Made by a program: the position numbers and the translations under genes
The notes under the pieces: model-generated
Seen by the model: the letters and a program-made list of their open reading frames with translations, nothing else
Database searches by the model: none
What the model was told of the DNA's origin: nothing
In this document: positions 5,456-9,993 of the stretch, in pieces
Layout of the letters: each line of letters starts with the position of its first letter
Position numbering within the stretch: the first letter of the stretch is position 1
Assembly (NCBI GenBank): GCA_029884455.1
Contig: JAOUHU010000011.1
Coordinates: forward strand, 1-64,000
DNA length: 64,000 nucleotides
Reading direction: 5' to 3'
Origin: Gammaproteobacteria bacterium
Lineage (GTDB): Bacteria; Pseudomonadota; Gammaproteobacteria; Steroidobacterales; Woeseiaceae

Positions 5456-8359
5456 CTAGGCCAGTTTGCCGTGACACTGTTTGAACTTTTTACCCGAGCC
5501 ACATGGGCAGGCAGCGTTACGGCCAACCTTGGGGGCTTCGCGCTTGAAGGTTTCGGCTACCTCCGGCCGCTGCCGAACCGGCGCCTGTGCCGCGCCTGTG
5601 CCGAGCGTGGTCGCCTCCGCATGCTGGAATTTCAGCGCCGCAGCCGCGCGCCGTCGTTCGGCTGAATCATCGAGGTCCTGCTCGCCCTGGATCCGCACCC
5701 GGGACAAAATACTGATGGTGTCATGCTTGACCTGCTCCAACATCGCGCCAAACATGTTGAACGCCTCGCGCTTATATTCCTGTTTCGGGTTCTTTTGTGC
5801 GTATGAGCGCAAACCTATGCCCTGTCGCAAGTGATCCATGGCTGCAAGGTGTTCTTTCCAGTGGTGATCGAGCTGACGCAACATGACCTGTTTTTCGACA
5901 GCACGCATCAGCTCGCGACCAACCGCACTGGCCCGTGCCTGGTATGCTTTATCAGCTTCGTCGATACACCGCTGCCGAATGCCGTCATCGTTGAGCGACT
6001 TGTCCTCACGAATCCAACGCGCCACATCCAGCTGCAGGCCGAAGTCGGCCGCCAGTACCTTACTCAGACCTTCGGGATCCCACTGTTCTTCAAGGCTGTC
6101 AGGCGGGATGTACTGCTGCACCATGCCGCCGATGACCTCGTCCCGGATGGCCGCAACGGAATCCTCAATCTCGTCCGCCGCCATCAACTCAGTACGCTGG
6201 TGATAAACCACTCTGCGCTGGTCGTTTGCAACGTCATCGTATTCCAGCAGGTTTTTGCGAATGTCGAAGTTGTGGGCCTCGACCTTGCGCTGCGCGCGTT
6301 CTATCTGCCGCGAAAGCAGCCTGCTTTCTATGGCCTCACCGGGCCGCATTCCGGCGCGCGCAAGCAGCGACTTGGTACGCTCGGGGTCACCGAATATGCG
6401 CATCAGGCTGTCCTCGAGCGACAGATAAAACCTCGACGAGCCCGCATCTCCCTGGCGGCCGGATCGCCCGCGCAGCTGATTATCAATTCGTCGTGACTCA
6501 TGTCTCTCGGTACCGACGATATGCAGACCTCCGGCGGCGAGCACCGCATCGTGGCGCCGCTGCCACTCGGCACGTATCGCCGCTACGTCGGCGCCCTCGC
6601 CTGCTGCCGTAATCTCCGCGTCCAGGTTACCGCCGAGCACGATATCGGTACCTCGACCTGCCATGTTAGTTGCGATCGTGATTACGCCGGGTCGGCCGGC
6701 CTGTTGCACAACAATAGCCTCGCGTTCATGTTGTTTGGCGTTCAGAACTGCGTGCGCAATTTTGCGTTCGTCGAGCAGTTTTGAAAGCAACTCGGAAGTC
6801 TCGATCGAAGTGGTACCAACCAGTACGGGCTGGCCGCGCTCACGGCAGTCGACTATGTCTTCAATAATCGCTTCAAATTTGTCGGCCTGCGTCAGGTACA
6901 GCAAGTCTGGCGAATCGATACGAACCATGTCCCGATTAGTGGGAATAACGACAACTTCGAGTCCATAAATCTGTTGAAACTCGAACGCCTCGGTGTCTGC
7001 GGTACCGGTCATGCCGGAAAGATTGTTGTACAGCCGAAAGTAGTTTTGAAACGTGATCGAAGCGACCGTCTGGTTTTCCTGCCGAATGGCAACGCCCTCT
7101 TTCGCCTCGATCGCCTGGTGCAATCCGTCCGACCAGCGCCGCCCCGGCATGGTTCGACCTGTAAACTCGTCAACGATAACCACCTCGCCGTCCTTGACGA
7201 TGTATTCGACGTCGCGCTGGTAGATCGCATGTGCCCTAAGGGCCGCATTCAGGTGGTGCAGCAGGCGGATATTGCCGGCATCGTAAAGGCTCTCACCCTC
7301 TTGCAGCAGGCCCGCCCTCGCCATCAGCATTTCGATCTTCTGGTGGCCCTCTTCGGTCATGTGTGCCTGCTTGGCTTTTTCGTCCGTCACGTAGTCGCCA
7401 CGACGCACCATTTTGCAGGCTACGGCGCCGTCCGCATCGCCGATGGCTACGACATCTGCAGCGTGCTGCTCCGCAATTTCAACGGCTTGCTCGAGGCTCA
7501 TGATTTCGGTCTGTTCGCCGTTCTCGGCAGTTACGCGGACCGCCATGCCTTTTTCGTCACGCAGCGAAACGCGTTTCGCAACGATGTCGAAATTTCGCTC
7601 CGCCTCTGAATCTTCCTGTTTGATCAGCTTCGGAATCAGTTTGTTGATATGTCCGTACAGATCAGTGCTGGATTCAGCCGGACCGGAAATAATCAGCGGT
7701 GTTCGCGCCTCGTCAATGAGGATCGAGTCGACTTCGTCAACAATTGCAAAATTCAGTTTTCGCTGTACTTTGTCCTGCAGCGAAAACGCAAGGTTGTCGC
7801 GCAAGTAGTCGAAGCCGAGCTCGTTGTTGGTCGCATACGTGATGTCACAACTATATGCGGCACGCTTTTGTTCCTGTGTCTGGCCGCTCCGGGACACGCC
7901 AACCGTAAGGCCCAGGAATTCGTAAACCGGTCGCATCCAGTCCGCATCGCGCTGTGCGAGATATTCGTTGACCGTGACCACGTGTACACCATTGCTGCTG
8001 ATCGCATTCAAATAGGCCGGCAACGTTGCGACCAGGGTTTTGCCTTCGCCGGTACGCATCTCGGCAATATTTCCATCATGCAGGACCATGCCACCAATCA
8101 GCTGAACGTCAAACGGGCGCATGCCCAGGGTTCGTCGGGCCGCTTCTCGCGCAACTGCAAACGCCTCGACCAGCAACATCTGTAACGACTCGCCCGCCGC
8201 ATACCGGGAGCGGAATTCCTCCGTCTTGGCGCGCATAGCGGCGTCGTCGAGCTCTTGAATACCCGCTTCCAGAGCGTTGATGCGATTGACGGATTTCGAG
8301 TACTGGCGCAGCAGGCGCTGGTTACGACTGCCGAATATTCGGGTCAAGAAGTTGGCCAC
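5456..8359 (-). CDS. secA: Preprotein translocase ATPase SecA
   Basis: [19 protein letters not shown], helicase motifs, C-terminal zinc motif [14 protein letters not shown]; likely GTG start [13 protein letters not shown]. Confidence 0.97.
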
Positions 8360-8470
8360 GGGGGCTCCTGAACAAAATGGGCGCAGAAAGCCCGTTATTC
8401 TATCCAAACTAACGAACTGGGGGTAAATTCCGGGATATCAACTTGCCTGGCTGCGGCCAGGACTTGCGGC

Positions 8471-9403
8471 TCAGTTGGCGGATTCGCGAATGAAATTCAC
8501 CGGATTGACCCGGGTTCCGCCCTTGAGCACTTCGAAGTGAAGATTTGGACCGGTAGCACGACCGGAATCGCCCATCCGCGCAACAGTCTGGCCTTTCCTG
8601 ACTTCGTCGCCGACTGCAACAAGATTCTCGGAATTGTGCGCATAGCGCGTCGCGTAACCGCTGCCGTGATTGATTTCAACCATCATTCCATAGCCATAAC
8701 GATCACCGGACCAGGTGACCACGCCATCGGCAACCGCAACCACTTCGGCGCCAAACTTGCCAGCGAAGTCGATTCCTGTGTGATTTGCCGGCTTGCCCGT
8801 GAACGGGTCGGTGCGCTTGCCAAAATAGGATGAAATCCAGCCGGAGCCAACCGGGCGGCCTTGTGGGTGCACGCGTCCCTTGAGGTTCCGGTTCATCAAC
8901 ATGCTTTCGAGCACACGCAACTGGGCTTCCCGGTCATTGAGCTGGTAATCAAGCGCCTGCATGTGGTCGACGAGGTCAGGGACAGCGATATTCGATCCGT
9001 AGGCGACCGGCTCCTCAGGACCACCCATTGCCGGCGTCGAATCGAAGTCGAATTCGCCATCGTCCAGGTCTGCCATGCCTGTTAACCTGCGGCCCAGCGC
9101 ATCCAGCCGAATGACATGTGCATTCATCTGCGCGATGCGAATCGCCAGCGCGTCCAAAGTATCTTCATTGGCCTGCCGAATTGTCGCAATTTTCTCGCGT
9201 TGCTGCTCGAGTTCGCTGGCGACACCAAGAACCTCATACTGGCTTATACCCGAGCCAGTAACCGACGACATCCAGTAGCCACCGGCAAATCCCGCTGCAG
9301 ACACAAGCGCGGTCAAGGCAATTGCCACCGCCCAGACTGAAATGCCGGACAGGTTGAGCTGCCGGGGCTTACCAAAGCCCTTGCCGAATATGACTACATT
9401 CAT
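8471..9403 (-). CDS. Membrane-anchored M23 (LytM) family metallopeptidase
   Basis: N-terminal TM segment; HTGIDFAG, YAHNSE and NLHFEV zinc/catalytic motifs intact. Confidence 0.9.
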   Translation of the reverse strand: MNVVIFGKGFGKPRQLNLSGISVWAVAIALTALVSAAGFAGGYWMSSVTGSGISQYEVLGVASELEQQREKIATIRQANEDTLDALAIRIAQMNAHVIRLDALGRRLTGMADLDDGEFDFDSTPAMGGPEEPVAYGSNIAVPDLVDHMQALDYQLNDREAQLRVLESMLMNRNLKGRVHPQGRPVGSGWISSYFGKRTDPFTGKPANHTGIDFAGKFGAEVVAVADGVVTWSGDRYGYGMMVEINHGSGYATRYAHNSENLVAVGDEVRKGQTVARMGDSGRATGPNLHFEVLKGGTRVNPVNFIRESAN

Positions 9404-9500
9404 CGAGATAACCTCGAGTGTGCCTGCGTTTCCATGCGTGACAGGTCAGCAACAGCCGCAATGCGGCCCTCTGTTGTTCTTGTAAAGCTGCTGTCAATCT

Positions 9501-9596
9501 TCACTTCGGTAGCCCCGCTGTCGTAGGATCACATCCCTTAGACCGGTGGTTTTGCGCCCCCACCTTTCGATGGGTTTGCCCTTATCGTGGGCACAA
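9501..9596 (-). ncRNA. Cyclic-di-GMP-I (GEMM-I) riboswitch aptamer in the leader of the M23 peptidase gene
   Basis: Minus-strand CACGATAAGGGCAAACCCATCGAAAGGTGGGGGCGCAAAACCACCGGTCTAAGGGATGTGATCCTACGACAGCGGGGCTACCGAAG aligns without gaps to the Vibrio Vc2 GEMM aptamer as I recall it; 6-bp P2 capped by GAAA, GCGCAAA joining segment, UCUAAG/CCUACGA receptor-like internal loop. Confidence 0.93.
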
Positions 9597-9693
9597 TATG
9601 CATAATGTCGGAATTCAATACAAGAAAACGTCTCCCGAATCGGGATTTTCGTCGCTCTCGAGCCCGTAGAATCGCCAACTGCGTCACATTTTG

Positions 9694-9993
9694 ATGTCCG
9701 AAAAGCGCCTCGAAAAACTACTAAATTCCAGTAATAGCGGGGGCTTAGGGGACATCGTCCAGCATGCCCGCGAGATGGGCAATCTGGTCAGGACCCTGCA
9801 GCAAGCGCTGCCGGACGACCAGGCGACAGCTATTAGTGCCGCCAATATTCGCGCCGATGGTACGCTGGTGGTCCTGGCAAGCTCCTCCGCTTGGGCAGCA
9901 CGCCTGCGCTTCGAAACTGAACGTCTGATTGCGGCCGCGCGCAGCACCGGGAAAACCGTGCTTGCCTGTTCAGTGCGTGTCGGTCGAAACTAG
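9694..9993 (+). CDS. DUF721 / DciA-like protein
   Basis: 100 aa, ADGTLVVLASSSAWAARLRFETERLI typical DUF721; located between secA/M23 and lpxC as in other gammaproteobacteria. Confidence 0.75.
   Translation: MSEKRLEKLLNSSNSGGLGDIVQHAREMGNLVRTLQQALPDDQATAISAANIRADGTLVVLASSSAWAARLRFETERLIAAARSTGKTVLACSVRVGRN

Follow-up and report, generated by a model that had tools for sequence, protein, structure and literature searches.

The window analysed here, a stretch of 64,000 nucleotides from a marine MAG that named relatives assign to the Woeseiaceae, carries on its minus strand ftsZ, lpxC, a gene for a membrane-anchored M23 peptidase, secA and mutT, in this order. A c-di-GMP-I (GEMM-I) riboswitch aptamer lies ahead of the M23 gene, and dciA, encoded on the plus strand, separates it from lpxC (Table 1). 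The initial annotation, made from the sequence without database searches, had placed the M23 gene immediately upstream of secA and then mutT, and Pfam matches to M23, SecA and NUDIX/mutT bear this out. It had also called the peptidase catalytically intact. This holds for the zinc ligands H208, D212 and H289, which are invariant in our alignment, but not for the first histidine of the HxH motif, the residue that is catalytic in LytM, which is Asn287 here (GPNLHFE). Asparagine stands at this position in 10 of 14 aligned relatives. Because the motif reads NLH, the catalytic activity of the protein is uncertain. The start of secA is probably GTG 8362, behind AGGAG, rather than the TTG at 8407 that opens the reading frame. 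We could not find a canonical terminator in the roughly 110 nt between M23 and this GTG, and read-through control of secA (and mutT) from the M23 leader is possible. In one relative (locus L089 of genome G024, 1440-2305) M23 is split over two frames, by a frameshift or an assembly error.

Table 1. Features of the M23 leader and its surroundings in the window, from upstream to downstream with respect to M23.
Feature	Position	Strand	Basis or remark
DciA (DnaB helicase loader) gene	9691-9993	+	divergent from the M23 leader
Putative promoter: -35 TTGTAT (9623-9618), 17-nt spacer, -10 CATATT (9600-9595)	9595-9623	-	conserved in relatives
c-di-GMP-I (GEMM-I) aptamer	9505-9590	-	RF01051; same placement at 92 of the order's 108 examined M23 loci
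GCGGGG, 3' strand of aptamer P3, candidate Shine-Dalgarno site of the uORF	9513-9518	-	pairs inside the aptamer (Rfam alignment)
Relay uORF, GTG start, 34 codons (VKIDSSFTRTTEGRIAAVADLSRMETQAHSRLSR, then stop), TGA overlapping the M23 start	9400-9504	-	ORF reading
Local hairpin CUCGAGguuauCUCGAUG, pairing the M23 Shine-Dalgarno GAGG	9401-9418	-	centroid structure predicted for the window's leader RNA
ATGA, overlap of uORF stop and M23 start	9400-9403	-	TGA 9402-9400, ATG 9403-9401
Membrane-anchored M23 peptidase, 310 aa, proposed regulated gene	8471-9403	-	PF01551, E 4.1e-32
secA, likely start GTG 8362	5456-8362	-	SecA Pfam domains, conserved M23-secA order

Searching the window with the full set of Rfam families gave just two matches, RNase P and the c-di-GMP-I aptamer. 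The near-textbook GEMM-I element that the initial annotation had described on the minus strand, and for which it had proposed a cmscan search, was borne out over the whole window: RF01051 matches at 84.9 bits (E 2.6e-15; gathering score 35 bits) and over its full length, model positions 1-87. The GAAA tetraloop and the receptor-like strands are present as described, and the span first given for the element (9501-9596) contains the Rfam match and adds 4-6 flanking nucleotides. The M23 ATG indeed lies 97 nt past the end of that span, and 101 nt past the Rfam aptamer. The base equivalent to G20 of Vc2, the G preceding the GC of 'GGGCAAACC', was correctly said to be kept, and an A is also present at the position of A47. 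Since G20 is kept, c-di-GMP is the ligand expected for the window aptamer. The genome holds four c-di-GMP-I aptamers in all, the window copy included, and 19 GGDEF matches.

The arrangement is widely shared among relatives. An M23 protein match was found in 58 of 60 of them, and the order lpxC-M23-secA is preserved in almost all best matches. We searched the M23 leaders of relatives with a covariance model trained on 32 aptamers, and found the element in all 37 of the genomes first sampled in the genus, as well as in several other families. The initial annotation had proposed to check whether the same leader precedes the syntenic M23 gene in relatives; in a wider sample the aptamer stands ahead of M23 at 92 of 108 loci, in 10 of the 15 families of one order. 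Outside this group, the aptamer was not found at more than 40 named gamma- and betaproteobacterial M23 loci. Among named loci that do have it, two are labelled Woeseia or Woeseiaceae and three only Gammaproteobacteria (L097, L119 and L125, the last a weak match of 33.6 bits); a locus labelled Rhodospirillales (L096) has it too, with a leader that matches that of genome G038 in the order sample. The arrangement is therefore ancient and peculiar to this M23 gene.

In most leaders, across families, 4-6 nt separate the end of the -10 element from the aptamer, with M23 downstream on the same strand. A generic consensus scan did not flag the promoter pair in the window; TTGTAA-N17-CATATT/CATAGT is retained in most leaders of the genus, and a looser version is seen in other families. 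The predicted transcription start, at about 9588, coincides with the 5' edge of the aptamer. Because the -10 ends just before it, the M23 transcript should begin at the aptamer, which would thus open the message. Farther upstream, a CRP/Vfr-like site, GTGA-N6-TCAC, occurs in exact form in 26 of 44 genus leaders and with one mismatch in another 9 of the 44 (shuffle expectation 0% and 2.6%, respectively). Its centre lies 58-60 nt upstream of the aptamer, which puts it near -60, a class I CRP position. The site has decayed to GCGA-N6-TCCC in the window (9642-9655, minus strand); a Crp-family protein is present.

Directly next to the aptamer, which ends at 9505, stands the GTG of a short upstream open reading frame (uORF) at 9504. 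This uORF, missing from the initial annotation, is probably the expression platform of the M23 leader. After removal of near-duplicate and truncated records, 84 of 91 GEMM-bearing leaders have such a coupled uORF, against 5.5 of 91 expected from spacer shuffles, and against 25 of 84 expected when the shuffles are conditioned on the start codon; as the leaders are related by descent and are not independent samples, the shuffle figure is not to be read as a probability. By the same criteria the coupled uORF is absent from the other 7 leaders. Its start codon (GTG, ATG or TTG) lies between -4 and +7 nt from the aptamer end, and the uORF is 15-90 aa long. Its stop and the M23 start stand in a +4 overlap in 63 of the 84 and in a +1 overlap (TGATG/TAATG type) in 14. 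None of the 22 GEMM-I loci of the same genomes that do not precede M23 has a coupled uORF. Among 28 GEMM-I loci from elsewhere in the class, three have one; M23 follows at none of these, and at L296, which is one of the three, the gene begins right at the aptamer.

The peptide is far less conserved than its frame. The uORF pattern recurs in families that share no uORF sequence and whose uORF lengths differ up to six-fold, and the peptides are hydrophilic, with no evident signal peptide and no motif common to the families. Over the same 14 close pairs pN/pS is 0.73 for the uORF and 0.14 for M23; the peptide is thus almost unconstrained, and the frame is not. The corresponding pS values are 0.24 and 0.56, and the lower value in the uORF therefore indicates that its nucleotides are constrained as well.

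The sole plausible Shine-Dalgarno site of the uORF lies within the aptamer. It is GCGGGG, whose predicted pairing with the 16S anti-Shine-Dalgarno reaches -5.6 kcal/mol in the window; across the 84 leaders the uORF site averages -5.8 kcal/mol, on a par with the M23 site at -5.7, whereas random spacer windows give -2.3. GEMM-I aptamers conserve GCGGGG for reasons of structure, so that we infer its role as the Shine-Dalgarno of the relay uORF from its position. Judging from the known GEMM-I fold, GCGGGG is paired once ligand is bound, and the nucleotides that follow (CUACCGAA) are part of the binding site and of P1; the folded aptamer and a ribosome would be unable to share the GCGGGG strand.

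From the aptamer to M23, the sense strand yielded no flagged intrinsic terminator, and we rejected such a terminator as the expression platform. The whole window leader folds no better than its shuffles (z -0.39), and a genus-wide RNAalifold of the spacer gave no good single consensus structure. Leaders with a 122-nt spacer have a weak consensus hairpin in the same place as the window hairpin over the M23 Shine-Dalgarno. Only those with a 119-nt spacer fold well jointly (alifold -10.3 vs a column-shuffled mean of -0.75); there, a covarying hairpin lies within the relay uORF (for example, L055 1382-1500).

We propose that the leader works as a translational OFF switch for c-di-GMP and reaches M23 through the relay ORF, and put the probability of this reading at about 0.6. 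Transcription would begin where the aptamer does, at its 5' edge. In the ligand-free state, ribosomes would bind GCGGGG on the 3' strand of P3, initiate at the GTG, ATG or TTG right past the aptamer, read the 15-90 codons of the relay ORF and terminate on the M23 start codon, where termination-reinitiation would drive M23 synthesis. With c-di-GMP bound, P3 and the flanking P1 would be locked and the uORF start site covered; the relay ORF would then be off and, by translational coupling, M23 as well. What would matter is that the frame stays open and that its stop overlaps the M23 start, and not the peptide product. We infer the ligand binding, the masking, the coupling and the OFF direction from the way these sequence elements are arranged. 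The coupling may be partial, because M23 has a fair Shine-Dalgarno of its own.

A leader without an intrinsic terminator would also suit a transcriptional output, in which the uORF goes untranslated once ligand is bound and the polymerase is halted by Rho in the bare leader, giving less M23 and possibly less secA mRNA; Rho-dependent mRNA loss has been proposed for the metE switch (PMC11260477). Such control would make the precise stop/start overlap superfluous, however, and the 15-codon relays of one family (f2) give scant space for a Rho site, and we consider it rather unlikely. In M. tuberculosis the metE uORF suppresses MetE (PMC11260477), and translation of the uORF might likewise repress M23, so that ligand would shut the uORF and M23 would rise. 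The M23 Shine-Dalgarno fits this ON switch, but a stop codon atop the next start normally favours reinitiation, and in some leaders that Shine-Dalgarno lies under a local hairpin that translating ribosomes would open; the reversed direction seems to us improbable.

The place of the uORF between lpxC and secA is that of SecM, the leader ORF before secA in E. coli, and one subgroup of uORFs shares some motifs such as SRDSKFITTRISGR, as might be expected of a functional leader or arrest peptide. Here, however, no conserved arrest motif and no signal peptide were seen, the next gene is M23 and not secA, and neither the pN/pS of the peptide nor its wide range of lengths and hydrophilic character fits such a product. 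We rejected a SecM-like arrest peptide on these grounds and regard any function of the peptide itself as very unlikely. Loss of the aptamer in some family lines, and a degenerate copy of 18.6 bits in genome G039 of family f4, would be in line with an aptamer that has become vestigial and lost its control over M23. This is hardly credible for an aptamer that scores as the window copy does with its contact bases intact, and that no genome of the first genus sample lacks.

The base that specifies the ligand varies among leaders. G20 is found in 91 of 98 leader records. An A stands at this position in all four sampled leaders of family f9 (L070, L071, L201 and L202), in L216 of family f10 and in the degenerate L072. 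An A at position 20 goes with the cGAMP type of GEMM-I RNA. The cGAMP subclass of GEMM-I is the subject of PMC8835794. Another GEMM-I locus of the genus, L011, has this A as well. The substitution in f9, L216 and L011 suggests that ligand preference has switched to cGAMP in leaders that are otherwise conserved; two f9 genomes have 14 GGDEF matches each. Taken more broadly, there may be about an even chance that the leader represents an order-wide platform that needs neither terminator nor anti-Shine-Dalgarno, because the aptamer strand that binds the ligand doubles as the Shine-Dalgarno for a relay ORF free of sequence requirements. Frame and overlap would have been kept over deep time while the peptide drifts, and some lineages would have moved from G20 (c-di-GMP type) to A20 (cGAMP type).

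The closest known parallel is the ppe2 B12 riboswitch of M. tuberculosis with its relay uPPE2. There the aptamer acts on uPPE2, and PPE2 translation depends mainly on termination-reinitiation where the two frames overlap (AUGA), as was demonstrated experimentally (PMC11260477). The window leader likewise has its uORF directly 3' of the aptamer, with a stop that overlaps the next start as AUGA. In both cases the switch would gate the start of a short uORF, with reinitiation (in our case as read from the overlap) serving the downstream gene, and the proposed direction is OFF. The aptamer class, ligand, gene and phylum all differ, however. The Shine-Dalgarno of the ppe2 relay is part of a hairpin that follows the aptamer, whereas here it would lie within the aptamer, and, unlike ppe2, the present relay spans ten families of one order.

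Among GEMM-I riboswitches, Vc2 of Vibrio cholerae is described in PMC9262584 as a translational OFF switch. For Vc1, PMC4744006 notes that no terminator or anti-Shine-Dalgarno was seen before gbpA, and calls the mechanisms of Vc1 and Vc2 unknown. The M23 aptamer shares with both the GEMM-I family and the G20/A47/C92-type contacts (PMC4744006, PMC9262584). It differs in its target, those of the Vibrio switches being tfoY/VC1722 and gbpA, and in its relay ORF, none having turned up in the passages on them that were consulted. The gbpA gene of V. cholerae is also controlled by cAMP-CRP, with a GEMM-I element upstream (PMC4545359). In most genus relatives of the window a CRP site similarly precedes the promoter that feeds the GEMM-I leader; the gene is another one, however, and in the window genome the CRP-like site has decayed. 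A literature search, with subscription journals mostly outside it, returned no report of this locus under GEMM combined with leader peptide, with peptidase or peptidoglycan hydrolase, or with Woeseia.

For GEMM-I switches that have no visible terminator or anti-Shine-Dalgarno, the locus offers a concrete mechanism that can be tested with reporters and that comes with about 90 natural variants. In Woeseiaceae and sister families, it would link c-di-GMP to a cell-wall peptidase encoded beside ftsZ, lpxC and secA. A start codon at the aptamer edge combined with a stop/start overlap is, in addition, a signature by which other riboswitches can be searched.

The other three GEMM-I elements of the window genome (L002, L003 and L004) precede, as judged by eye, three differing genes, namely those for a secreted 478-aa protein, an FAD-linked-oxidase-like ORF of 463 aa and a lipoprotein-like protein of 186 aa. 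Among relatives the number of GEMM-I copies ranges from 0 to 17 per genome (G027, G060, G012, G030 and G044), with tandem copies in G046 (contig C28) and neighbouring copies in G027 (contig C17).
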